A program made the translations under genes and the position numbers. Below are positions 8,206 through 30,906 of a stretch of DNA of 64,000 nucleotides, in pieces. The first letter of the stretch is position 1; every line of letters starts with the position of its first letter. The notes beneath the pieces are model-generated. The model had not been told where the DNA came from, searched no databases, and saw only the letters and a program-made list of their open reading frames with translations. Origin of the DNA: a bacterium (GTDB lineage Bacteria > Sysuimicrobiota > Sysuimicrobiia > Sysuimicrobiales > Segetimicrobiaceae); the NCBI GenBank assembly GCA_035691305.1, contig DASSJF010000082.1, positions 62,001 to 126,000 on the forward strand, read 5' to 3'.

Positions 8206-9054
8206 ATGCCGACCTCGTGGAGGCGGGTGGCCGCGGCCGTGGTGAGCGCGGTCTGCGCAGCGGTTCCGGCGCCGGCTTTCGCGCGGGAGCCGATCGGGGG
8301 GGACGGCCGGCATGCGCCGGCCGGCGTGACGGCGACTGTTCATCTCCGCATGCCCGCGCTGCCGCTGCCGGCCGCGCCGCAGCTTCAAGGCGCGGCCGCC
8401 CTGCCGGAGACTCGCCATACCATCGTCGCCGGCGACACGCTGTGGGCGATCGCCCTATCCGCCGGCGTCCGCGTCGATGCGCTGGCCGCCGCGAACGGTC
8501 TCACCGAAAACTCGGTGCTCAAGCTCGGACGCGTGCTGACCATTCCGCACCCGGCAACGCCGGTTCCCGCCCCGGCGGCGTCGGTTCGCCCGGCCGCGCC
8601 CGAACGCACCTCCGTCCCGTCGCGCGCGGCGGCATTGCCGGCGGCCCCCGGTTCCGGTGCGGCGAGCCATCTCGCGCTGCTGTGGCCGGCCGGCGGGATC
8701 GTCACCTCCCGGTTCGGCTGGCGGGTCCATCCAATTTTCGGCGGTCGCGAATTTCACACCGGCATGGATATCGCGACTCGGTACGGCTCCCCGGTCGTGG
8801 CGGCCTGCGCCGGTCTGGTCCGCTTTGTCGGCTGGAAGTCCGGCTACGGCCGAATCGTCGTGCTCGATCACGACGGCGGCATCGAGACGGCGTACTCGCA
8901 CCTGTCCGCGGCCCTCGTGAGCCCCGGTCAGCGGGTGACGCAGGGCCAGCTGATCGGCCGCATCGGCAACTCCGGCTGGAGCACCGGTCCGCACCTGTTC
9001 TTTGAGGTGCGGCGGAACGGCGTGCCGCTGGATCCCGCCCGTTACCTCAACTGA
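8206..9054 (+). CDS. Secreted LysM plus M23/LytM-fold protein, third zinc ligand replaced
   Basis: An exported peptidoglycan-associated protein of 282 residues: signal peptide (ends near APAFAREP), a LysM module at about residues 67-110 (HTIVAGDTLWAIA, LTIPHP) for glycan binding, a Pro/Ala-rich linker, and a C-terminal M23 domain from about 165. Of the LytM zinc and catalytic residues, H184 and D188 (HTGMD), H232 (YSHLS) and H263 are present, but the usual GPHLHFE is GPHLFFE, so the expected last zinc ligand is F265. The protein may be a weak or inactive endopeptidase or an amidase activator, as in EnvC/NlpD. The start at 8206 has GGGAGGG upstream and begins the signal peptide. A paralogue follows at 9228. 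Confidence 0.85.
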   Translation: MPTSWRRVAAAVVSAVCAAVPAPAFAREPIGGDGRHAPAGVTATVHLRMPALPLPAAPQLQGAAALPETRHTIVAGDTLWAIALSAGVRVDALAAANGLTENSVLKLGRVLTIPHPATPVPAPAASVRPAAPERTSVPSRAAALPAAPGSGAASHLALLWPAGGIVTSRFGWRVHPIFGGREFHTGMDIATRYGSPVVAACAGLVRFVGWKSGYGRIVVLDHDGGIETAYSHLSAALVSPGQRVTQGQLIGRIGNSGWSTGPHLFFEVRRNGVPLDPARYLN

Positions 9055-9057
9055 CCG

Positions 9058-9099
9058 GCAGGAATCTGCCCCGCTTCGCCCCAACAAGGTTGTCGGGGC
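9058..9099 (+). promoter_or_regulatory. Possible structured 5' leader of the second M23 gene
   Basis: Immediately after the first M23 stop, two adjacent inverted repeats can form: GGCAG/CTGCC around a GAAT loop (9057-9070) and an imperfect GCCCC...GGGGC stem (9078-9099). The whole 173-base gap to the next gene carries no ORF of note. The core GCAGGAATC also occurs in the rho-M23 gap (8054). It could be a leader RNA or the terminator of the first gene. Confidence 0.3.
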
Positions 9100-9227
9100 A
9101 AGTCACGAGACACTGCTCGGACACCGGCTCTCGCTCGCCCTGACTGGGCGGGACGTGGTGCCCGCTCACCGTACGGTTGCCAGTTGTGTTCGCCCCGCAA
9201 ATCCGCGGAAAGACTCCAGGAGGATCC

Positions 9228-9989
9228 ATGGCCTCGTCCGAGAGGCGCCGGGCCGCCGGCGTGCGGTTTGTCGCGGCCGCTGCCGCGACGTGCGGGATGC
9301 TGGTAATCGGGATCGGCGCGGCTGTCATCAGCTACGGAGGGACGCCGGCCATCGGGGATCGCCCGGCGGCGGCCGGCGGGGAGAACGTCACACCCGCCGT
9401 GATGAGAGCCCCGGCGCCCGGGGTCTTGCAGCTCGCGGCGGCCGTCGCTCTTCCATGGACTGGGCGCGAGGCGGCCCCGGCGGCGGCGAGGGGGGGCGAC
9501 GCCGAATTGTCCCCGCGCGCAAACGTTGCCGGCGGTGTGCCGGCGGAACGGGGGGCGGCCCCGTCCGCCGCGGCGACGCCACCGGCGGCGGCCGAGGCGT
9601 TGTCCCTCGCACTGCTGCGGCCGTCCGGAGGCGTCATCACGTCGCGCTTCGGCTGGCGCATGCACCCGATCTTTGGAACCAGGGAATTTCATACCGGGGT
9701 CGACATCGCTACGCGCTACGGGTCGCCGGTCATCGCGGCGCGCGCCGGTGTGGTCCTCTTTGTGGGCTGGAAGTCCGGCTACGGGCGCATCGTTGTGCTC
9801 GACCACGGCGGCGGGTTCCAGACGACGTACTCGCATCTCTCGGCCGCCCTCGTGAACCCCGGCGAGGAGGTTGAGCCGGGCCAGGCCATCGGACGCATCG
9901 GCAGCTCCGGCTGGAGCACCGGGCCGCACTTGTTCTTCGAGGTGCGGCGGAACGGCGTTCCCGTCGACCCCGCACGGTACCTCAACTAG
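9228..9989 (+). CDS. Secreted M23/LytM-fold protein without LysM, same zinc-ligand change
   Basis: A 253-residue paralogue of the preceding gene. An N-terminal hydrophobic segment (about residues 10-35) serves as signal or anchor, an Ala/Pro-rich stretch replaces the LysM module, and the M23 domain begins near residue 130. The two domains are nearly superimposable by eye (SRFGWR.HPIFG, FVGWKSGYGRIVVLDH, RIG.SGWSTGPHLFFEV). H155, D159, H203 and H234 are kept, while the last zinc ligand is F236. AGGAGGA three bases before the ATG at 9228 fixes the start. The shared substitution means it predates the duplication or is under selection. Confidence 0.85.
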   Translation: MASSERRRAAGVRFVAAAAATCGMLVIGIGAAVISYGGTPAIGDRPAAAGGENVTPAVMRAPAPGVLQLAAAVALPWTGREAAPAAARGGDAELSPRANVAGGVPAERGAAPSAAATPPAAAEALSLALLRPSGGVITSRFGWRMHPIFGTREFHTGVDIATRYGSPVIAARAGVVLFVGWKSGYGRIVVLDHGGGFQTTYSHLSAALVNPGEEVEPGQAIGRIGSSGWSTGPHLFFEVRRNGVPVDPARYLN

Positions 9990-13062: not shown

Positions 13063-14244
13063 ATGCAGATTCCCAACCGCAAGATGATACCGACGCCCGA
13101 GCAGCGACAGAAGGCCCTCGAGATTCTCGAGACCGGAAGGACGTACGGCGGGGAAGAGACCGAGCGCTTCGAGATCGAGCTGGCCGCGTGGTGCGGCCGC
13201 CGGTACGGTGCGACCGCCAACTCCGGCACGTCGATTTGCCTGCTGGCCCTCGACGCGAAGGGCATTGGGCCGGGCGACGAGGTGATCCTGCCGGCGAACG
13301 GCTATGTCGGCGTGCTGGCGGCGGTGATAAAGCGCGGGGCGACCCCGATCTTCGCCGAGGCCGACGCCGACACGTCCAACGTCCGCCCCGACGCGATTGC
13401 CGCCGCGGTGACGCCGCGTACGCGCGCGGTCGTGGCGATTCACGACTACGGTTTTCCGTGCGACATGGATCCGATCATGGAAACCGCGCGGCGCCACGGG
13501 CTGTTCGTGATCGAAGATGCGGCCCATGCGCTCGGCGCGGAGTACAAGGGGCGGCGCGCCGGCGGCATCGGCGACATGGGGTTCTTCAGCTTCTCCGGGA
13601 AGATGATCACGGCGTTCGGACCCGGCGGCGGCGCGGTGACGGACGATCGGGACCTCGCCGAAGGGCTGGCGAGTCTGCGCGACCAGGGCCGCGTACGGGA
13701 CGAGCACATCAGTTTCGTGCGGCGGACGGACCCGACGTGGTACGACCAGCGGTGGGTCGGTTACAACATGCACATGACCGAGCTGTGCGCGGCGCTCGCG
13801 CGCATCGATCTCCGCATGCTGCCGTCGTTCGTCGCGCACCGGCGCCGCGCGGCGGCCTACTACACCGAGCGCTTCCGGGACGCGGGGCTGCCGCTGCGGC
13901 TGCCGCCGTCCCGGCCGTGGGCGGCGCCGTCGTACCTGCACTATACGGTCTGGACTCCCGAGCGCGAAGGGCTGCGCGAGGCGCTTGCCGCCCGCGGGAT
14001 CGAGGGGATCGCGCTCTACCCTACGCCGCTGCACCTGGCGCGTCCCGTCATGGAGCAGTACGGGACGCGGGCGGGACAGTTTCCGGTGGCGGAGCGGCTC
14101 TGCCGCGAGACGCTGTCGATCCCGGCCGGCCCGCACATGACGGACGAACTGCTGGCGTACGTCGCGGACGCGGTGATCGGCTACTTCAGGGCGAGGCCGT
14201 CCGCCGGAGCCGCCGGCGCCAAATCGGCCGTGACCGCGGATTAG
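13063..14244 (+). CDS. DegT/DnrJ/EryC1/StrS-family PLP aminotransferase, paralogue 1
   Basis: A 393-residue fold-type I PLP enzyme. D152 (VIEDAAHALGAEYKG) should hold the pyridine nitrogen and K180 (FFSFSGKMITAF) should form the Schiff base. Known family members transaminate nucleotide-linked keto-sugars or cyclitols, but no such pathway lies here. The lysine loop is one residue shorter than the usual S-F-x3-K form and lacks the EGG after it. Over the C-terminal half it is very similar to paralogue 5 at 26906 (shared TWYDQRW.GYNMH, HRRRAAAYYT, RLPPSRPW), so the two arose by recent duplication. The ATG at 13063 is the likely start; a GTG lies 6 bases before it. Confidence 0.87.
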   Translation: MQIPNRKMIPTPEQRQKALEILETGRTYGGEETERFEIELAAWCGRRYGATANSGTSICLLALDAKGIGPGDEVILPANGYVGVLAAVIKRGATPIFAEADADTSNVRPDAIAAAVTPRTRAVVAIHDYGFPCDMDPIMETARRHGLFVIEDAAHALGAEYKGRRAGGIGDMGFFSFSGKMITAFGPGGGAVTDDRDLAEGLASLRDQGRVRDEHISFVRRTDPTWYDQRWVGYNMHMTELCAALARIDLRMLPSFVAHRRRAAAYYTERFRDAGLPLRLPPSRPWAAPSYLHYTVWTPEREGLREALAARGIEGIALYPTPLHLARPVMEQYGTRAGQFPVAERLCRETLSIPAGPHMTDELLAYVADAVIGYFRARPSAGAAGAKSAVTAD

Positions 14245-17948: not shown

Positions 17949-18848
17949 CTATCGCGAACGAAAGCGCGGATCGAGCAGATCGCGCAGTCCGTCGCCGAGC
18001 ACGTTCATCGCCAACACCAGCGTCAGAATCGCGAGTCCCGGGAACGTGCTGATCCACCACTGGTCGAGATAGTTGCGCCCGGCGGCGATCATCGAGCCCC
18101 ATTCCGGGATCTGCGGCGGCGGGCCGAGTCCCAGGAAGCTCAGCGACGCGAAGGTGAGGATGGCGTGGCCCACGTCGAGCGTGCTGAGGATCACCACCGG
18201 CGAGATCGTCTGCGGGAGCACGTGCCGGAGGAAGATCCGCGGGCGCGAACCGCCGACCGCGCGCGCCGCGAGCACGTACTCGCGGTCCCGCAGCGCCAGC
18301 ACGAGGCCGCGGACGAGCCGGGCGTAGGACGGCCACCACGCGACCATGATCGCGATGATCGCGTTCCGGATGCCGGCGCCGAGCGCCGCCGTGATGACGA
18401 GGGCGAGGATGACCGTCGGAAACGCGAGCATCAGGTCCGTGCCCCGCATGATCGCCTCGTCGGCGACCCCCCCGAGAAAGCCGGCGGTCCCGCCGATCAG
18501 CGTGCCGAGCACGACCGCGAGCGCCACGGCCACGATGCCGACCGGGATCGAGAGGCGCGCGCCGTAGAGAATGCGGCTCAGGATGTCGCGCCCGAGCGGG
18601 TCCGTGCCGAGCCAGTGCTCGGGGCCCGGAGGCTGCAGGCGTCCGGCGATCGATTGCGCGAGCGGCGGGTACGGCGCGAGCGACGGCGCGAGCGCGGCCG
18701 CGGCGATCCAGCCGGCGACGATCGCGAGGGCAAGCAGCGCGAGCGGCGAGCCGGAGAGCTGACGCGGCAGCAGGCGGCGCCACCGGCGCCGTGCCCGCCG
18801 GGGCACGGGCGCCGTCTCCGTGGTGGTGACCGCGGCGTCCACGCTCAC
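17949..18848 (-). CDS. ABC transporter permease, DppC/OppC type
   Basis: A 299-residue inner-membrane permease of the peptide/nickel importer class. There is a hydrophobic segment near residues 28-60, an extracytoplasmic loop with the family signature HWLGTDPLGRDILSR, and five further membrane segments. The EAA-type cytoplasmic loop follows AVGGSRPRIFLRHVLPQT, which contacts the ATPase. The start overlaps the stop of the DppB-like gene (ATGA). No ATPase gene (DppD/DppF) is present in this operon or elsewhere in the window. Confidence 0.92.
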   Translation of the reverse strand: MSVDAAVTTTETAPVPRRARRRWRRLLPRQLSGSPLALLALAIVAGWIAAAALAPSLAPYPPLAQSIAGRLQPPGPEHWLGTDPLGRDILSRILYGARLSIPVGIVAVALAVVLGTLIGGTAGFLGGVADEAIMRGTDLMLAFPTVILALVITAALGAGIRNAIIAIMVAWWPSYARLVRGLVLALRDREYVLAARAVGGSRPRIFLRHVLPQTISPVVILSTLDVGHAILTFASLSFLGLGPPPQIPEWGSMIAAGRNYLDQWWISTFPGLAILTLVLAMNVLGDGLRDLLDPRFRSR

Positions 18849-19864
18849 GCGACCCGGATGCGCGGGTCGAAGAACGCGTAGGCCACGTCGACGACCAGAT
18901 TGACCATGACGTACACCGCGGCCACGACGATGCCGCTGCCCATGATCGCCGGGAAGTCGAGCGACGTGGCGCTGCTAAACGCGTAGAGGCCGAGGCCCGG
19001 CCAGCTGAACACCGTTTCGGTGACGACGGCGCCGGACAAGAGCCCGCCGAAGCTGAGGCCGACGATCGTGATGATCGGGATCAGCGCGTTGCGTGCCGCG
19101 TGCCGGACGATGACGGCCCAGCGGGTGACGCCCTTCGCCCGGGCGGTGCGGACGTACTCTTCGCCGAGCACTTCCAGCATGCTGCCGCGCATCATCCGGG
19201 TGACGATGCCGAGGCTGTAGGACGAGAGCACGACGGCCGGCAGGACGAGGTGCTGCAGCCAGTCGGCCGCCGCGTCCCAGCGATGGCTGAGGATCGCGTC
19301 GATGAGCACGAATCCGGTGACGAAGGGCGGTGGCGTAATCACCGGACTGAGCCGTCCCGGCGCCGGCGCCCAGCCGAGGTGCGCGTAGAAGACGACGATC
19401 GCGACGAGGCCGAGCCAAAACACCGGCGTGGAGACGCCCACGAGCGAGGTGACGCGGGCGGCTTGATCGATGGGCCGTTCGCGGTTGACCGCGGCCAGCA
19501 TCCCGAGCGGGATCCCGGCGACGAGGCTCAGCAGCATCGCGGCGACGGCGATCTCGATCGTCGCCGGTAGGTGCTGCCGCAGGTCGAGCAGCACCGGCTG
19601 GCGCGTGGAGATCGAGACGCCCATGTTGCCGTGGACGAGGTTCCAGAGATAGATCAGGTACTGCTTGTAGAGCGGCTGGTCGAGCCCCCAGCGATGGCGA
19701 AACGCGGCGACGATCGTCGGGTCCGCGGCGGCCTGGTCGCCGAGATTGGCCGCCACCGGATCGGCCGGGACGGCGTGGGACAACAGGAAACTCAGCAGCG
19801 TGATCCCGACCAGCATCGGGACCAGCAGCAGTACCCGCCGGACGATGTAGCGGAAGAGCGTCAT
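18845..19864 (-). CDS. ABC transporter permease, DppB/OppB type
   Basis: A 339-residue inner-membrane permease, the partner of the DppC-like protein. The N-terminal YIVRRVLLLVPMLVGITLLSF membrane segment and the DPTIVAAFRHRWGLDQPL region are typical of DppB; the EAA loop reads TARAKGVTRWAVIVRHAARN. Six membrane segments are expected. It lies downstream of the solute-binding protein gene, separated by 137 bases that carry two tandem hairpin repeats. Confidence 0.92.
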   Translation of the reverse strand: MTLFRYIVRRVLLLVPMLVGITLLSFLLSHAVPADPVAANLGDQAAADPTIVAAFRHRWGLDQPLYKQYLIYLWNLVHGNMGVSISTRQPVLLDLRQHLPATIEIAVAAMLLSLVAGIPLGMLAAVNRERPIDQAARVTSLVGVSTPVFWLGLVAIVVFYAHLGWAPAPGRLSPVITPPPFVTGFVLIDAILSHRWDAAADWLQHLVLPAVVLSSYSLGIVTRMMRGSMLEVLGEEYVRTARAKGVTRWAVIVRHAARNALIPIITIVGLSFGGLLSGAVVTETVFSWPGLGLYAFSSATSLDFPAIMGSGIVVAAVYVMVNLVVDVAYAFFDPRIRVA

Positions 19865-21799: not shown

Positions 21800-22969
21800 A
21801 TGGCGCGCGAGGCACCCGTCCGAGAGATCCGCTACAAGCCGGTCATGACCGACGAAATGATCGACGCCGCGACCCGCGTGCTGCGCAGCGGCAAGTACAT
21901 CCGCAGTTTCCCGCTGGAGGACTCCGAGGGCAAGCGCTTCGAGGACGAGTTCTGCGCCTACATCGGCGCGCCCCACGCCGTCAACATGTCGAGCGGCACC
22001 GCGGCGATGCACATCGCGCTGCTGGCGCTCGGCGTCGGGCCCGGCGACGAGGTCATCACGGTTCCGAACACGTTCTCCTCTGTCGCGGACGTCATCATCC
22101 TCTGCGGCGCGAAGCCGGTCCTGGTCGACGTCGAGCCCGACACCTACAACATGAACGTCGGGCAGGTCGAGGCCGCGATCACGCCGCGGACGAAGGCCAT
22201 CATGCCGGTGCACATGAACGGCCACGCGGTCGATATGGACCCGCTGATGGCGATCGCGCGGAAGCGCGGTCTGAAGGTGATGGAGGACGTCTGCCACGCC
22301 GCCGGCGCCAAGTACAAGGGCCGCTATCTCGGGACGTTCGGCGACGCCGGCTGCTTCTCGTTCGTGCAGAACAAGTGCATCTCCGTCGGCGGCGAAGGCG
22401 GCATGATGGTCACCTCGGACCCCAAGGTCTGGGAGACGGCGATGATGTTGTGCAACCACGGCCGCGGACGGCGGTGGTTCGAGGGGCACAAGGCCTACCA
22501 TATCTACCGCGCCCAGCAGATCGAGTTGGTGGGTTTCAACTACCGGCAGAACGAGCTTCACTCGGCGATTGGCCGGATCCAGCTCAAGTACCTCGACGGC
22601 TGGAACGCCCGCCGGCGCGAGAACGCGGCACTGTACGGGACGCTGCTGAGCCGATTCCGCCACGACCTGACGCTGCCGGCCGCCAAGCCGTACGCCGAGC
22701 ATGCGATGATGCGGTTCGTGGCGCAGACGCCGCGGCGCGACGAGCTGCGCGCGTATCTCGAGGCCCGCGGCATCCACGTCATGGTGGAGTACGGCACGCC
22801 GATTCACCTCGACCACGCCTACCAGCGCCACTGCGGAGCGCCCGAGGGGACGTTTCCGGTCACGGAGCGGCTCGCGCAGACGATCCTGACGTTGCCGTGC
22901 TATCAGACGCTCGACGCCAACGACATCGGATACGTCGCGGAGGCCATCCGGCAGTTCTACCGTGAGTAG
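21800..22969 (+). CDS. DegT/DnrJ/EryC1/StrS-family PLP aminotransferase, paralogue 2
   Basis: A 389-residue member of the family with the standard catalytic loop: D163 (MEDVCHAAGAKYKGR) and K192 (FSFVQNKCISVGGEGG). The N-terminal SGKYIRSFPLEDSEGKRFED block matches that of paralogue 7 (32857), so these two form one subgroup with the family's usual S-F-x3-K spacing and an intact EGG. CTGGAGGGGA about 8 bases before the ATG at 21800 sets the start. It is first in a run of eight overlapping or closely spaced genes ending at 30906. Confidence 0.88.
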   Translation: MAREAPVREIRYKPVMTDEMIDAATRVLRSGKYIRSFPLEDSEGKRFEDEFCAYIGAPHAVNMSSGTAAMHIALLALGVGPGDEVITVPNTFSSVADVIILCGAKPVLVDVEPDTYNMNVGQVEAAITPRTKAIMPVHMNGHAVDMDPLMAIARKRGLKVMEDVCHAAGAKYKGRYLGTFGDAGCFSFVQNKCISVGGEGGMMVTSDPKVWETAMMLCNHGRGRRWFEGHKAYHIYRAQQIELVGFNYRQNELHSAIGRIQLKYLDGWNARRRENAALYGTLLSRFRHDLTLPAAKPYAEHAMMRFVAQTPRRDELRAYLEARGIHVMVEYGTPIHLDHAYQRHCGAPEGTFPVTERLAQTILTLPCYQTLDANDIGYVAEAIRQFYRE

Positions 22970-24146
22970 CCGCGACCCGGCCGGCGGCGGGCCGCTTCCC
23001 GTGAAGTACCGGTGTCTCTGGACGCCGTTCGACGCCGAGATGCGGGACGCCATGCTGCGTCCCACGCCGGGCCCGGTGTACTACGACGGCCCCGAGGTCG
23101 AGGCGTTCGAGCGCGAGGCCGCGGCTTACCTCGGCGTCGCGCGCGGCGTCGGCGTTTCGTCGGGAACAACGGCCCTGTACCTCACGATGCTGGCGATGGG
23201 GATTGGTCCCGGCGACGAGGTCGTCTGCGCCGCGAACGGCTACGTGTGCGGCGCGGAATGCGCGATCCAGGCCGGGGCCAAGCCGGTCTACTGCGACGTG
23301 CTCGACGAGACCGCGAACCTGGACGCGCGGACCGTCGAACCGGTGCTGACGCCGCGCACGAAGGCGATCGTGGCCGTCCACCTCTACGGGCATCCCGTGG
23401 ACATGGATCCGCTCATGGATCTGGCGCGCCGCAGAGGCCTGTTCGTGATCGAGGATCTCGCGCACGCTTTCGGCGGGCGGTACAAGGGGCGTCCGCTCGG
23501 CTCGATCGGACACGCGAGTTTCACGAGCTTCGCGCGCAAGGGGATTACCGTCGCGGGACAGGGCGGCATGGCCTTTACCGCCGACCCGGAGTGGACGCGC
23601 CGCATCGCGCTGCTGCGGCGCCACGGTTGGGAACGCGGCCACGCGTACCGGAGCCGGATCAGCCTGGTTGGCTTCAACCATACGCTCGGCGAGTCGCTCG
23701 CCGCGGTGGGCCGCGTGTCGCTGTCGCGGCTCGACCGGCACAACGCCGTGCGCCGCGAGAACGCTCGCCGGTACACCGGCGGCCTCACCGCGCGCGGCCT
23801 CGGCGCGGCGGTCCCCGTCGAGTTGCCGTGGGCGTCGCACGCGTGGTTCCACTACGTGATCCGCGTGCCGCGGCGCGACGATCTCATCGCGTTTCTCCGC
23901 ACGCGCGGCGTCGAGGCCGGCATTCACTACAAGCATCCCGTGTACCGCGAGCCGGTGTACATCGCGCGTACCGGCGAGGACCCCGGGCCGCGGCCGGTGG
24001 CGGATCGAATCACGTCGCACATCGCCACGCTCCCGTCGCACCCGGAAATGGGCGGCGACGGGGTGGACTACGTGCTCGATCAGGTGGCCGAGTTCTACGG
24101 CGGGCGCTTGGACGAGGCGGCCGGCGCGGCCGCCGCCGCGCGGTAG
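22962..24146 (+). CDS. DegT/DnrJ/EryC1/StrS-family PLP aminotransferase, paralogue 3
   Basis: A 394-residue paralogue whose GTG start lies inside the last codons of paralogue 2 (8-base overlap), so translation is coupled. Catalytic residues are D165 (IEDLAHAFGGRYKGR) and K193 (FTSFARKGITVAGQGG). The lysine loop has one residue fewer than paralogues 2 and 7, and the usual glutamate of EGG is Gln. The N-terminal block is shorter (TPGPVYYDGPEVEAFER). The C-terminus ends in an Ala-rich tail. The acceptor is unknown; being cotranscribed with an amidase suggests an amide or amino-acid related substrate. Confidence 0.87.
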   Translation: MSSRDPAGGGPLPVKYRCLWTPFDAEMRDAMLRPTPGPVYYDGPEVEAFEREAAAYLGVARGVGVSSGTTALYLTMLAMGIGPGDEVVCAANGYVCGAECAIQAGAKPVYCDVLDETANLDARTVEPVLTPRTKAIVAVHLYGHPVDMDPLMDLARRRGLFVIEDLAHAFGGRYKGRPLGSIGHASFTSFARKGITVAGQGGMAFTADPEWTRRIALLRRHGWERGHAYRSRISLVGFNHTLGESLAAVGRVSLSRLDRHNAVRRENARRYTGGLTARGLGAAVPVELPWASHAWFHYVIRVPRRDDLIAFLRTRGVEAGIHYKHPVYREPVYIARTGEDPGPRPVADRITSHIATLPSHPEMGGDGVDYVLDQVAEFYGGRLDEAAGAAAAAR

Positions 24147-25550: not shown

Positions 25551-25750
25551 GCGGTTCAACCGAACGCATTCGCGAGGAGCTCGGGCGCCTCGGCATCGCG
25601 GTGGACGGTGACGATCTTGCGATGATCGCGAAGATCGTCGAGGCGAACCGCGCGGGACTGGCCCGCGTGCCCGCCGAGGCCGTCGACGATCCCGAGGTGA
25701 GCCATGGGTTCCTGCCGCCGGCGGTACCGGGAGAGCCCCATGGCGTCTGA
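25547..25750 (+). CDS. Small putative amidase partner (GatC/AtzG-like), 67 residues
   Basis: This ORF begins at an ATG overlapping the amidase stop and ends 11 bases into the next DegT gene. The 67 residues are mostly two helices (TERIREELGRLGI, LAMIAKIVEANRAGLAR) and a Pro-rich tail ending in a GFLPPAVPG stretch. Size, position and helix-plus-tail layout recall GatC and the AtzG-like (DUF4089) proteins that stabilise amidase subunits by wrapping a C-terminal tail around them. I see no decisive motif, so the functional label is inference from context. Confidence 0.6.
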   Translation: MSGSTERIREELGRLGIAVDGDDLAMIAKIVEANRAGLARVPAEAVDDPEVSHGFLPPAVPGEPHGV

Positions 25751-26909
25751 GGCGCGCGCCGCGATGGAGATCCCGTACAAGTTCCCGTACCCGGTGACCG
25801 ACGAGATGCAGCGCGCGGTCGCCGACGTGCTGCGCCGGCGGATTCACTACTTCGGGCCGTACACCGACGCGCTGGAAGCGAAGCTGGCCGCGCTGAGCGG
25901 GACGAAGCGCGCCGTCGCGGCCTCGTCGGGCAGCGCCTGCCTGCTTCTCGGCCTGCACGCCTGCGGAGTGGGCGCCGGCGACGAGGTCGTCATGCCCGCG
26001 AACATCTACGCCGGCGTCCCCGAGGCCGCGCTGCAGCTCGGCGCCGCACCGGTCCTGGTCGACATCGACCCGCGGACATACAACATCTCGGTGGAGCAGG
26101 TGGAGGCGGCGCTCTCGCCGCGGACGCGCGCGATCGCGGTGCAGCACAGCTACGGCCACGCCGTCGACATGGATCCGCTGCGGCGCCTCGCCGAGCCGCG
26201 CGGGATTCGCATCCTCGAAGACGCGGCGCACGCGCTCGGCGGCCGGTACAAGGGACGGCCCACCGGCGGGCTCGGCGACGTCGGCGTGTTCGCGTTCAGC
26301 AACAAAGGGATCTCCGCGTGCGGGGTCGGCGGCGCCGCGACGGCGGCAGACGAGCGGATGGCGCAGGACCTGGTCGACCGCCGGTACCATGGCCGGCGCG
26401 CCGGCTACGAGACGCACGTCCTCGGCTACAACTTCCGCTTGACGGAGATGGTTGCCGCGGTCGCGTCGTGCCAGCTGGACCACCTGCCGGCGTGGAACGC
26501 GCAGCGCCGGCGCAACGCGGAGCACTATACGGTGCGCCTCGGCGACGCCGGCGTCCCGCTCGGACTGCCGGTCGAGCTGCCGTACGCCGAGCACACGTTC
26601 CTGCACTACGTCGTGCGGCTCGACGCCCGGGACGCGCTGATGGAATACCTCCGAGGACGGGGCGTCACGACCTCGGTGCACTATCCCGTGCCGGTGCACC
26701 GGCACGCGGCGTTTGCCGGCCGCCTGCCGTACCGCGAGGGCCAGTTCCCCGAAACGGAGCGGGCCTGCCGGGAGATTCTGTCGCTGCCGTGCCATCCGGC
26801 CGTGGGCGAAGCCGAGATCCGGTACGTCGTGGCGGGGGTCGCAGAGTTCTACCACGGCCGCGCCGACGCGCGGCGCCGGACGGAACACGGTGGAGGGGGG
26901 CGGGCATGA
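25740..26909 (+). CDS. DegT/DnrJ/EryC1/StrS-family PLP aminotransferase, paralogue 4
   Basis: A 389-residue paralogue from the ATG at 25740, which has GGGAGA just upstream and overlaps the preceding small gene; an ATG at 25764 (MEIPYKFPY) is an alternative. D161 (LEDAAHALGGRYKGR) and K189 (FAFSNKGISACGVGG) are present. The lysine loop is the short form. The N-terminal RRRIHYFGPYTDALEAKLA replaces the usual SG(W/K)-type block. The C-terminus has the family's HYPVPVHRHAAF histidine segment. The stop overlaps the next start (ATGA). Confidence 0.86.
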   Translation: MASEARAAMEIPYKFPYPVTDEMQRAVADVLRRRIHYFGPYTDALEAKLAALSGTKRAVAASSGSACLLLGLHACGVGAGDEVVMPANIYAGVPEAALQLGAAPVLVDIDPRTYNISVEQVEAALSPRTRAIAVQHSYGHAVDMDPLRRLAEPRGIRILEDAAHALGGRYKGRPTGGLGDVGVFAFSNKGISACGVGGAATAADERMAQDLVDRRYHGRRAGYETHVLGYNFRLTEMVAAVASCQLDHLPAWNAQRRRNAEHYTVRLGDAGVPLGLPVELPYAEHTFLHYVVRLDARDALMEYLRGRGVTTSVHYPVPVHRHAAFAGRLPYREGQFPETERACREILSLPCHPAVGEAEIRYVVAGVAEFYHGRADARRRTEHGGGGRA

Positions 26910-28054
26910 AGATTCCCTATCGCGCGCCGGTCGTCACGGACGAGATGCGGCGCAAAGCGCTCGAGGTGCTCGAGAGCGGGACGACGTTCGGCGGGCCCGA
27001 GACCGAGCGCTTCGAGGTGGAGCTCGCGGAGCGGTGCGGGATGCGCTACGGCGTCAGCGCCAACTCCGGCACGTCCGTCACAATGCTCGCGCTCGATGCG
27101 CGCGGCGTCGGCCCCGGCGATGAGGTTGTCATGGCGGCGAATGCCTACATCGGCGTCCTCGCCGCGGTCGTGAAGCTCGGCGCCGCGCCCGTGTTCGTCG
27201 AGGCTGAGGCCGGCACCGGCAACATCTGTCCGGACGCGGCGGCCGCCGCGATCACGGCGAAAACCCGCGCGATCGTGCCGCTCCATATGTACGGTTTTCC
27301 GTGCGATATGGACCCGATCGTCGCGGCGGCCCGCGCGCGCGAAGTGTTCGTGCTCGAAGACGCGGCCCACGCGCTCGGCGCCGAGTACAAGGGCCGCCAG
27401 GCGGGCGGCCTCGGCGACGCGGGGTTTTTCAGCTTCTCCGGCAAGATGATCACGGTGTTCAGCACGGGCGGCGCGGTCGTCACCAACGACCGCCGTCTCG
27501 CCGAAGGCATTTCCAGCCTGCGCGATCAGGGCCGTCTGCGCGACGAGAAGATCAGCTTCATCAGGCGCACCGACGCGACGTGGTACGACCAGCGCTGGAT
27601 CGGCTACAACATGCACCTCTCCGAGATGGCCTGCGCGCTCGGGCGCCTCCAGCTTCCCCTGCTCGCGCGGTTCACCGAGCACCGCCGCCGGGCGGCCGCC
27701 TACTACACAACACGGTTCACCGACGCGGCGCTGCCGGTGCGGCTCCCTCCGTCGCGGCCCTGGGCCAACCCGTCGTATCTGCACTACGCGATCTGGACCC
27801 CAAAGCGCGACGCGATGGTGGAGTTTCTGCGGGCGCGCGAGATCGGGGTCGGTGTGCACTATCCGCTGCCGCTGCATCTCCTCGAGCCGGTGCAGGCGCG
27901 GTACGGCACGCGCGAGGGGCAGTTCCCCGTGGCGGAACGGCTGTGCCGCGAGAACCTCTCCCTGCCGGTCGGCCCGCACATGACCGACGAGATGCTCGCC
28001 CGCGTCGCCGACGCCGTGATCGCGTTCTTCAAGGCAGACCGCGCCGCGGCCTGA
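26906..28054 (+). CDS. DegT/DnrJ/EryC1/StrS-family PLP aminotransferase, paralogue 5
   Basis: A 382-residue paralogue whose ATG overlaps the stop of paralogue 4. D152 (LEDAAHALGAEYKGR) and K180 (FFSFSGKMITVFSTGG) are kept. It is by far the closest relative of paralogue 1 at 13063, with long near-identical blocks in both halves (ETERFEVELA, GFPCDMDPI, RRTD.TWYDQRW, GPHMTDE). The two may act on the same substrate class or form a heterodimer. The catalytic loop lacks EGG. Confidence 0.88.
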   Translation: MKIPYRAPVVTDEMRRKALEVLESGTTFGGPETERFEVELAERCGMRYGVSANSGTSVTMLALDARGVGPGDEVVMAANAYIGVLAAVVKLGAAPVFVEAEAGTGNICPDAAAAAITAKTRAIVPLHMYGFPCDMDPIVAAARAREVFVLEDAAHALGAEYKGRQAGGLGDAGFFSFSGKMITVFSTGGAVVTNDRRLAEGISSLRDQGRLRDEKISFIRRTDATWYDQRWIGYNMHLSEMACALGRLQLPLLARFTEHRRRAAAYYTTRFTDAALPVRLPPSRPWANPSYLHYAIWTPKRDAMVEFLRAREIGVGVHYPLPLHLLEPVQARYGTREGQFPVAERLCRENLSLPVGPHMTDEMLARVADAVIAFFKADRAAA

Positions 28055-28069
28055 CGCGGACACGGAAGG

Positions 28070-29272
28070 ATGACTGCGCGCGACCGATCCGCCAAGCTGC
28101 GGCCCCGGAAGGTCCAGTCGAAGCGCATCGAAATCACGGACGAAATCCGGAAGGCCGTGTTGGCGCAGCTCGATCGCGGTGTGTACTACGGTGGCGAGCA
28201 GGCGTACCGGTTCGAGCAGGAGCTCGCAGCCTACCTCGGCGTACGGCACGTGCTCACGGTGAACTCCGGCACATCCGCGCTTCTCGCCGCGGCGATCGCG
28301 CTCGGAATCGGACCCGGGGACGAGGTGATCGTCCCGGCCAACGTCTATGTGTCGAGCGCGGAAGTGCCGGCGTTCCTCGGCGCGGTCCCGGTGTTTTGCG
28401 ACGTCGACGAGGCGACGGCCAACATGACGGCCGAGACGCTGCGCGCGCGGCTGTCGTCTCGCACGAAGGCCCTCATCGTCACGCACATGTACGGCCACGC
28501 GGTCGACTTGGACCCGATTCTCGAAATTGTTCGCGCCCGGGGGCTGCGCGTCATTGAAATCTGCGCCCACGGCCTCGGCGCGGAATACAAGGGCAAGAAA
28601 CTCGGGGCGTTCGGGGACGCCGCGGTCTTCAGCCTCGGGAGCAAGAACATCTCGATGTGCGCGACCGGCGGCGCCGTCGCCACGAATTCGGCGCGGCTCT
28701 ACGAGGAGGCGGCCAGAGTTTCACGGCACGGATGGGGGCGCCTCTCAGTTACGCCGTCGTTCTACCGGCAGATCGCCTTCGCCGATTCTCCGATGTCGGG
28801 TATGTCGCCGCTCGATCGCGACTCGGCCAGGCCGGGGCTAAATCTGCAATTGGACGAGATCCCGTGCGCGATTGGACGGATCGGCCTCCGGCATCTCGAG
28901 GAGTGGAACGCGCGCCGGCGCGAGGTCGCGGCGTTGTACACGCGTCTTCTGGCCGAGGCCGGCGTGCCCGTTCATGCGCCGGTCGTGCACCCGTGGACCA
29001 AGCACGCGTTCCTGCACTACGTGGTTCGCGCCCCCCGGCGCGATGGGTTGCGCGACTTTCTCGTCGAGACCGGCGTCGAGGCGTTGATTCACTATCCGCA
29101 GCCGCTTCCGGACATGCGGTATTATCGTGAGCACTATCCGACCAGCCCGGCGGTCTATCCCGTCGCGTCACGCCTCGCCGGAGAGATCCTCACCCTGCCC
29201 ATTCACCCGTGGCTTGACGACGCCGACGCCGAGTACGTGGTCGCTCGCATCTCCCAATTTTACCGCGACTGA
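28070..29272 (+). CDS. DegT/DnrJ/EryC1/StrS-family protein, paralogue 6, lacking the PLP-binding aspartate
   Basis: A 400-residue paralogue. The Schiff-base lysine K192 (FSLGSKNISMCATGG) is kept, but the motif that reads EDAAH in its neighbours is VIEICAHGLGAEYKGK, with Ile at position 164 where the aspartate that pairs with the PLP ring nitrogen should be. The bases at 28553-28561 read ATT GAA ATC, with no sign of a frameshift. A 15-residue insertion relative to its neighbours follows the lysine region (about residues 225-260). It may be a non-transaminating PLP enzyme, a partner subunit, or inactive. The gene follows paralogue 5 by 15 bases. Confidence 0.85.
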   Translation: MTARDRSAKLRPRKVQSKRIEITDEIRKAVLAQLDRGVYYGGEQAYRFEQELAAYLGVRHVLTVNSGTSALLAAAIALGIGPGDEVIVPANVYVSSAEVPAFLGAVPVFCDVDEATANMTAETLRARLSSRTKALIVTHMYGHAVDLDPILEIVRARGLRVIEICAHGLGAEYKGKKLGAFGDAAVFSLGSKNISMCATGGAVATNSARLYEEAARVSRHGWGRLSVTPSFYRQIAFADSPMSGMSPLDRDSARPGLNLQLDEIPCAIGRIGLRHLEEWNARRREVAALYTRLLAEAGVPVHAPVVHPWTKHAFLHYVVRAPRRDGLRDFLVETGVEALIHYPQPLPDMRYYREHYPTSPAVYPVASRLAGEILTLPIHPWLDDADAEYVVARISQFYRD

Positions 29273-29304
29273 CCACCGGCGGCCCGCGCCGCCGCATAGG
29301 GGGA

Positions 29305-30906
29305 ATGAACGGAATGATCTCAGCGGCTCCGACCGGCGCGACGCGCCGGGTGTTTGCCCTGATCGCGGCTTTGCTCGGCGTGGGTGTCCTGCTGACGCCG
29401 GGCGTCCGGCCCGCCTGGACCGCCGAGAGTCCGGCGCTCGTATGGGGGCTCGGTGGGGATCCGAACAGCCTCGACTATCCGGCCACGTACAACGGGGAGG
29501 CCGGTCCGGTCGTTACGCAGATCTTCAACACCCTGGTCCGAATGAAGGCGGGCGGTACCGCCCTCGAGCCCGACCTCGCAACCTCCTGGACGGTCTCGCC
29601 GGACGGCCGGACGTGGACGTTCGCCCTGAGGCAGGGCGTGATGTTCCACGACGGCACGCCCTGGAACGCCGAGGCGGCCAAGTTCAATGTCGACCGCTGG
29701 GCCGACCCGCACAATCCGTATCACGGCCAGGGCGTCGACTTCGCCTATTGGAACGACTTCATGGCGAAGGGCGTGGATGAGGTCCGGGTCACCGGGCCGT
29801 ACACGCTGCAGTTCGTCCTGAAGACGCCGCTCGGACCGCTGCTCAACAATCTCGCGATCCCGGCGTTCGACTTCGCCAGCCCCGCCTCACTGAGGCAGTT
29901 CGGCGCGGACGGGGCGGGGACGCATCCGGTCGGCACCGGACCGTACAGTTTCGTGGACTGGTCGCGGGCCGACCACATCACGCTGCAGGCCAACCCCCGG
30001 TACTTCCGCGCCGGCCTGCCCCGGCTTTCCCGCGTCGTCTATCGGATCATCAAGGACAACTCGGCGCGCTATCTCGCCCTGAAGGCCGGCGAGATTCAGG
30101 CGATGGAGTTGCCGGATCCCGACAGCGTGCAGGCCGCGGAATCGGATCCGGCGCTACGGGTCGGGCCGCGGCCCGCGTTTGGCACCGGGTGGCTCCAGTT
30201 CGACCTGCGTGATCCGCTGCTGCGGGACCGCCGCGTACGGGAGGCGATGGCCCGTGCGATCAACAAGACGGCGATCGTGCACGCATTGTACGGCAAGTTC
30301 GGCGAGGTGGCGGACCAGATCATGCCGCCGGTGATGTGGGGCCGTTCACGAAACGTGCCGGTGTATCCGTACAGCCCGGACGTCGCGCGAAAGCTGCTCG
30401 CCGACGCCGGATACGCCAACGGCGTCGCGCTGGACTTCTGGTACCTGCCGGTCAGCCGGCCGTATTTCCCCGACGCCAGGTCGATTGCGACGGCGATCGC
30501 GAACGATTTCGGGAGAGTCGGGATCCGCGTCCACTTGGTGACGGAGGATTGGGCCGCGTATCGGAAGGACCGCCTGACAAAATTGCCGCTGTGGATGTAC
30601 GGGTGGATCGGGGATACGGGCGATCCGGACGACTGGTTCAGCTTCTATTTCAGCGGCCACGACGACAGCGCGATTCATTCGTACGACAACCCGAAGGTGT
30701 TCGCGCTCATCGCCCAGGCACGGTCCCTCGGCAACCCGGCCGAGCGGGGGAGGCTCTACGCGCAGGCCCAGAATTTGATCGCGCAGGACATTCCGCTGAT
30801 TCCGATCGCCCACGCGGGCGTCCCGATTCTGATGAGCCGGCGGGTCGACGGGCTGGTGCCCCAGCCGGACGGGAACGAGCGGCTCGAGACCGTGACGATG
30901 CGCTAG
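29305..30906 (+). CDS. ABC transporter substrate-binding protein, family 5 (orphan)
   Basis: A 533-residue secreted binding protein (SBP_bac_5). The signal peptide includes RRVFALIAALLGVGVLL and ends near the AESPALVW segment. Family marks are WGLGGDPNSLDYP, PDLATSWTVSPDGRTWTF and the FHDGTPWNAEAAKFNVDRW block. It ends the DegT operon, 32 bases after paralogue 6, and has no permease or ATPase beside it. It may share the DppBC-like permeases encoded leftward at 17949-19864. ATG 29305 or 29314 could be the start; the latter has better spacing to GGGGGA. Confidence 0.9.
   Translation: MNGMISAAPTGATRRVFALIAALLGVGVLLTPGVRPAWTAESPALVWGLGGDPNSLDYPATYNGEAGPVVTQIFNTLVRMKAGGTALEPDLATSWTVSPDGRTWTFALRQGVMFHDGTPWNAEAAKFNVDRWADPHNPYHGQGVDFAYWNDFMAKGVDEVRVTGPYTLQFVLKTPLGPLLNNLAIPAFDFASPASLRQFGADGAGTHPVGTGPYSFVDWSRADHITLQANPRYFRAGLPRLSRVVYRIIKDNSARYLALKAGEIQAMELPDPDSVQAAESDPALRVGPRPAFGTGWLQFDLRDPLLRDRRVREAMARAINKTAIVHALYGKFGEVADQIMPPVMWGRSRNVPVYPYSPDVARKLLADAGYANGVALDFWYLPVSRPYFPDARSIATAIANDFGRVGIRVHLVTEDWAAYRKDRLTKLPLWMYGWIGDTGDPDDWFSFYFSGHDDSAIHSYDNPKVFALIAQARSLGNPAERGRLYAQAQNLIAQDIPLIPIAHAGVPILMSRRVDGLVPQPDGNERLETVTMR

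Follow-up and report, generated by a model that had tools for sequence, protein, structure and literature searches.

The closest described relatives of the protein considered here are the sugar aminotransferases of the DegT/DnrJ/EryC1/StrS family. In the structure of Spr1654, the pyridine nitrogen (N1) of PLP stays protonated through contact with an Asp residue, the His residue three positions past this Asp contacts O3′, and Ser and Thr residues hold the phosphate (PMC5936713). The Asp has been called invariant in fold type I enzymes (PMC9309667). An Asp-to-Ala change in aspartate aminotransferase results in loss of activity because the quinonoid is no longer stabilized (PMC9105233), and alanine racemase functions with an unprotonated pyridine nitrogen (PMC6411801). 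The pairing of Asp with N1 is regarded as a standing rule for PLP chemistry in fold type I, and its effect has been studied mostly via engineered mutants and cofactor analogues. In the ColD/E1-type dehydratases, which have the same fold, it is the Lys that is replaced, by His, wherein the Asp is kept and the chemistry has moved away from transamination.

The window examined here is a stretch of 64,000 nucleotides from a bacterium of the family Segetimicrobiaceae, and it carries seven DegT paralogues within one 21-kb locus (nucleotides 13063 to 34047). One of these, called DegT6, reads VIE-I-CAH, wherein Ile164 occupies the position expected for the N1-pairing Asp. An earlier note on this DNA had claimed that the Asp is lost while Lys192 and the reading frame are intact, and the ORF, codons 164 and 192, and the paralogue alignment all agree. 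The span from 28553 to 28645 corresponds to codons 162 to 192 and reads I-E-I-C-A-H through G-S-K. As the same note also stated, the six other paralogues carry E-D at the aligned column (VIED, VMED, VIED, ILED, VLED, and VIED), and the Lys is kept in all. Ile164 likewise aligns without gaps to the Asp of VIED, LIED, or IVED in the nearest solved structures (7b0d, 3frk, and DesV 2oga). Among the PLP contacts of the Spr1654 type, the Asp is the only one missing from DegT6; the His, Ser, Thr, and Lys residues are all present. Conversion of an Asp codon (GAC or GAT) to ATC involves a minimum of two substitutions.

DegT6 matches Pfam family PF01041 over residues 22 to 394 with a score of 310 bits (cut-off 19.8), its AF2 model has a mean pLDDT of 92.6 (98 around Ile164), and the PDB matches listed by Foldseek are sugar aminotransferases and their close kin. 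By profile and predicted fold, DegT6 is an AAT-like PLP fold type I protein. Of the catalytic features of sugar aminotransferases, the Schiff-base lysine is present, whereas the N1 Asp is replaced by Ile164 in all three orthologues described below. No curated transaminase equivalog of NCBIfam (PseC, ArnB, WecE, DesI, and others) accepts the protein, for which the best score is 213 bits versus the PseC cut-off of 423.5. Because the defining catalytic Asp is absent and no curated equivalog accepts it, we do not file DegT6 as an aminotransferase. The His that takes the place of the lysine in ColD/E1-type 3-dehydratases is not found either, as this residue is Lys192, and no DNA-binding domain is detected in DegT6 by Pfam search.

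The search covered 43 genomes of the phylum, all of which belong to one order (class and phylum comprise the same 43). Two orthologues were found, one from another genus of the same family (L099, 76% identity) and one from another family (L121, 67% identity). These were assembled independently, and both carry Ile at the Asp column, encoded by ATC, as well as the GSKNIS lysine motif. Judging from the sequences of these three orthologues, the Asp-to-Ile swap is fixed in three genera and two families. A scan of genome contigs with DegT6 recovered relatives of at most 43% identity (best segment) and no orthologue. No further orthologue was found in 386 mixed relatives and approximately 1,300 genomes of four other phyla, which are samples, so orthologues may exist elsewhere. 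Viral contigs and plasmids yielded distant DegT proteins only, and Asp is found in every viral sequence that could be read at the column.

Estimates of dN/dS for DegT6 are 0.15, 0.17, and 0.27, compared with 0.14 to 0.19 for Asp-bearing paralogues from the same genome pairs, where dS is near 1 and the values are rough. By this sequence-based measure, DegT6 is under purifying selection and is constrained about as strongly as its Asp-bearing paralogues. In an alignment of the three orthologues, 227 of 386 positions (59%) are invariant, whereas 19 of 19 pocket positions are invariant (hypergeometric p = 3e-5), this list having been chosen by us from family knowledge rather than from a structure of DegT6 and including Ile164 itself. 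The lid-like segment formed by residues 222 to 258 is invariant at 19 of its 37 positions, and the AF2 confidence there is partly low.

The Asp column was read in 238 distinct homologues of the DegT family, drawn from whole genomes and from genome and viral contigs. This set is nonrandom, its members having been picked on the basis of resemblance to DegT6 and of short peptide patterns. Asp is present in 233, consistent with its previously claimed near-invariance, and the remaining five comprise the three DegT6 orthologues with Ile, one protein with Val (L235, LIEVLAH), and one with Asn (L241, VIENGCH). The lysine is kept in all five, whereas 26 of the 233 Asp-bearing homologues have His in its place, so that the Asp is the less variable of the two residues in this sample. 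The replacing residues (Ile, Val, and Asn) are all uncharged. Both the Val protein (C34:3171-4253) and the Asn protein (C553, about 18236-19306) are encoded in G023, which is also the source of the 67% orthologue. The completeness of this assembly is 72% and its contamination 5%, and the codons involved (GTC for Val, AAC for Asn) are each one base from Asp; thus, the Val and Asn losses stand on weaker ground than the Ile change.

All five Asp-less proteins reside in a subgroup in which the Lys lies four residues after the Ser (Ser188 and Lys192 in DegT6) rather than five as in ordinary sugar aminotransferases. This short-loop subgroup consists of DegT1, DegT3, DegT4, DegT5, and DegT6 of the window plus relatives, for a total of 28 sequences when one listed fragment with an unrelated frame (L120) is left out, and every member read keeps the Lys. 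The subgroup forms a clade (support 98/96) wherein the Ile, Val, and Asn proteins fall in three separate places, which indicates at least three separate losses of the Asp. The raw number of changes in the tree is four, the true number being three, because the tree holds an unlabeled duplicate of the DegT6 sequence from the window. Such recurrent loss looks like an evolved change in chemistry, not error. All short-loop members seen are from one bacterial order.

DegT6 adjoins a gene for a family-5 solute-binding protein (SBP) in three of three genomes (G000, G006, and G023). This neighbor is SBP2 in G000 and G006 (76% identity), and the neighboring SBP in G023 is closer to SBP2 than to SBP1. 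In G023, the SBP gene is on one side of DegT6 and two permease genes are on the other. The Val and Asn proteins, along with an Asp-bearing relative (L233), are also encoded beside SBP and permease genes, which for the Val and Asn proteins are peptide-type ABC-transporter operons of G023. Comparison of the DegT6-SBP2 segment of the window (28070 to 30906) with L124 and L123 reveals that both genes are missing between DegT5 and PIG-L in another genome of the same genus (G001), where about 60 bp are present, and that both lie at a different place within the same locus in G006. This joint absence and joint relocation indicate that DegT6 and SBP2 act as a module of two genes. DegT5 is the neighbor of DegT6 in the window alone; the two are apart in G006 and G023, and no recognizable DegT1, DegT3, or DegT4 is present in G006. 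This gene order argues for a link between DegT6 and substrate import and against a special link to DegT5.

The locus common to the family includes genes for hydantoinase A/B, a dihydropyrimidinase-like hydrolase, an amidase, PIG-L, a 2-hydroxyacid dehydrogenase, an asparaginase, and IclR, together with family-5 SBPs, permeases, and several DegT proteins. No sugar-nucleotide or glycosyltransferase genes were recognized between positions 13063 and 34047 of the window. The hydantoinase, amidase, PIG-L, and peptide-type transporter genes that neighbor the DegT genes suggest an uncharacterized catabolic pathway. Elsewhere in the window (8218 to 9989), inspection by eye identified two neighboring genes for secreted peptidase-like proteins whose C-terminal domains are near repeats of each other, and one of the two includes a LysM-like segment.

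Table 1. Positions in the window of the DegT genes, selected DegT6 residues, and transporter genes.
Feature	Position	Strand	Basis
DegT1, Asp-bearing, short-loop clade	13063..14244	+	alignment, tree
Two ABC permease genes of the locus	17949..19864	-	PF00528
DegT2, Asp-bearing, ordinary loop	21800..22969	+	alignment, tree
DegT3, Asp-bearing, short-loop clade	22962..24146	+	alignment, tree
DegT4, Asp-bearing, short-loop clade	25740..26909	+	alignment, tree
DegT5, Asp-bearing, short loop, immediately upstream of DegT6	26906..28054	+	alignment, locus comparison
DegT6, DegT/DnrJ/EryC1/StrS-family protein, 400 aa (400 codons), Asp absent, Lys present	28070..29272	+	ORF, Pfam PF01041, AF2
DegT6 codon 164, ATC (Ile), PLP-N1 Asp position	28559..28561	+	sequence and alignments
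DegT6 codon 167, His167, O3′-binding position (His173 in Spr1654)	28568..28570	+	sequence; invariant in the three orthologues; role from PMC5936713
DegT6 codon 192, AAG (Lys192), Schiff-base lysine	28643..28645	+	sequence and paralogue alignment
DegT6 codons 222-258, extended lid-like segment with partner-site Asn258 at its end	28733..28843	+	alignment, AF2
SBP2, family-5 solute-binding protein, moves with DegT6	29305..30906	+	PF00496
DegT7, Asp-bearing, ordinary loop	32857..34047	+	alignment, tree

We propose, with a confidence somewhat short of even, that DegT6 is a functional and selectively maintained Asp-to-Ile protein that conducts a PLP reaction without a quinonoid on an imported amino compound. 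Given the pocket residues that are kept, PLP would be bound as a Schiff base on Lys192, with its phosphate held by Thr68, Ser188, and Asn258′ of the partner subunit and its O3′ by His167. The hydrophobic side chain of Ile164 would face the pyridine nitrogen, and N1 would stay unprotonated. The ring would then be a weaker electron sink, such that the quinonoid used for efficient transamination would be disfavored. The reaction might be an epimerization or racemization by proton shift, or an elimination; the specific type is a guess based on what an unprotonated ring nitrogen allows (PMC6411801, PMC9105233). The adjacent transporter would probably supply the substrate, an amino compound. A broader and more tentative proposal is that the transporter-linked, loop-shortened DegT clade represents a natural branch of fold type I with an unprotonated N1, wherein the loss of Asp on at least three occasions (to Ile, Val, and Asn) marks a change in reaction type.

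That Ile164 instead reflects a sequencing or assembly error, or the recent decay of a redundant paralogue, is exceedingly improbable. The window does come from a draft genome (87 contigs) and DegT6 is one of seven related copies, but the window protein shares this Ile with orthologues of 76% and 67% identity from two further genomes, the frames are intact, at least two base changes separate the codon from Asp, and dN/dS is well below 1. The earlier note had tied this possibility to the presence of Asp in close orthologues. Both share the Ile and the Lys, and this rules out sequencing error and recent decay. Chance misreading of codon 164 is further excluded by the two substitutions needed, by the identical ATC in the orthologues, and by the column survey. 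It is also improbable, to a lesser degree, that DegT6 is an ordinary and perhaps slower aminotransferase in which the missing Asp is compensated. A water molecule, known to hold the nitrogen of PLP in certain enzymes (PMC9105233), or a neighboring side chain could stand in at N1. A candidate for the latter is the clade-invariant Thr138, which is invariant in the three orthologues and is Val, Ile, or Leu in most other homologues. The fold and cofactor pocket match those of sugar aminotransferases, including Lys192, His167, Ser188, Thr68, and Tyr93. However, the Asp is retained in 233 of 238 homologues, even in the 26 with His for Lys, the Asp site of DegT6 is occupied by a beta-branched hydrophobic side chain, and a ring nitrogen opposite a nonpolar residue is reported solely for engineered mutants in PMC9105233.

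Conservation of the pocket could also fit a ligand-binding pseudoenzyme. In this explanation, which we judge unlikely albeit a serious contender, DegT6 would bind PLP or a sugar-phosphate- or amino-phosphate-like ligand and would either serve as a sensor or pair with another DegT of the cluster as the silent member of a heterodimer, to which it would contribute residues such as Asn258 through the dimer interface. A catalytic residue is indeed gone from a protein whose fold and ligand pocket are conserved, the active sites of DegT proteins are formed by both subunits (PMC5936713), several close paralogues are present at the same locus, and other commonly conserved residues, among them Arg/His260, His347, and Glu367, are lost in a clade-specific manner. 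Yet the Schiff-base Lys, which would be needless in a silent protein, is found in every Asp-less protein. It is mainly this survival of the Lys, including in the independent Val and Asn losses, that leads us to rate altered PLP chemistry above a pseudoenzyme. Moreover, there is no constant partner gene, DegT5 and DegT7 are widespread without DegT6, and a DNA-binding domain is absent. The earlier note had offered non-transamination chemistry or a regulatory partner role, with DegT5 as the presumed partner. The first of these appears plausible on sequence grounds. The partner role is unsupported, and the choice of DegT5 conflicts with its separation from DegT6 in two other genomes, with its occurrence without DegT6 in most relatives, and with the identity of the conserved neighbor, which is an SBP gene.

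In a limited search of the open-access literature, we found no description of a natural DegT protein that lacks the Asp and keeps the Lys, and nothing on point regarding fold type I proteins without the Asp or inactive partners of aminotransferases. A clade wherein the Asp was repeatedly lost and the Lys kept, with Asp-bearing sisters in the same locus, offers a ready comparison for relating the state of the ring nitrogen to the type of PLP reaction. Such a clade may also point the way to new chemistry or to a transport-linked sensor based on PLP.

Among known systems, the sugar aminotransferases (ArnB, PseC, DesV, QdtB, GDP-perosamine synthase, and Spr1654) are closest to DegT6, with a Foldseek probability of 1.0 and TM scores of 0.82 to 0.87 by query for the nearest matches, at about 24 to 34% sequence identity to members of the DegT/DnrJ/EryC1/StrS family. 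They have in common the Lys, the O3′-binding His/Gln position, the phosphate-binding Thr and Ser, and a His-Tyr pair. Unlike these enzymes, DegT6 has Ile in place of the N1 Asp, a Ser-to-Lys loop that is one residue shorter, and a longer lid at residues 222 to 258, and its gene neighbors encode a peptide-type ABC transporter and amidohydrolase or amidase proteins. The closest solved relative is the Archaeoglobus veneficus sugar transaminase 7b0d, annotated as Glutamine--scyllo-inositol transaminase (E = 5.8e-67 by sequence and 3.7e-37 by fold), which in contrast retains the Asp (VIEDACQ) and an ordinary long Lys loop. Relative to the ColD/E1-type dehydratases, DegT6 represents the opposite case in that the Asp is changed and the Lys is kept, an arrangement found in 5 of the 238 homologues versus 26 with Asp and His. 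The unprotonated pyridine nitrogen proposed for DegT6 is shared with alanine racemase (PMC6411801) and with Asp-to-Ala aspartate aminotransferase (PMC9105233). The former is a fold type III enzyme that uses Arg and the latter is man-made, whereas DegT6 would be a natural example in fold type I.
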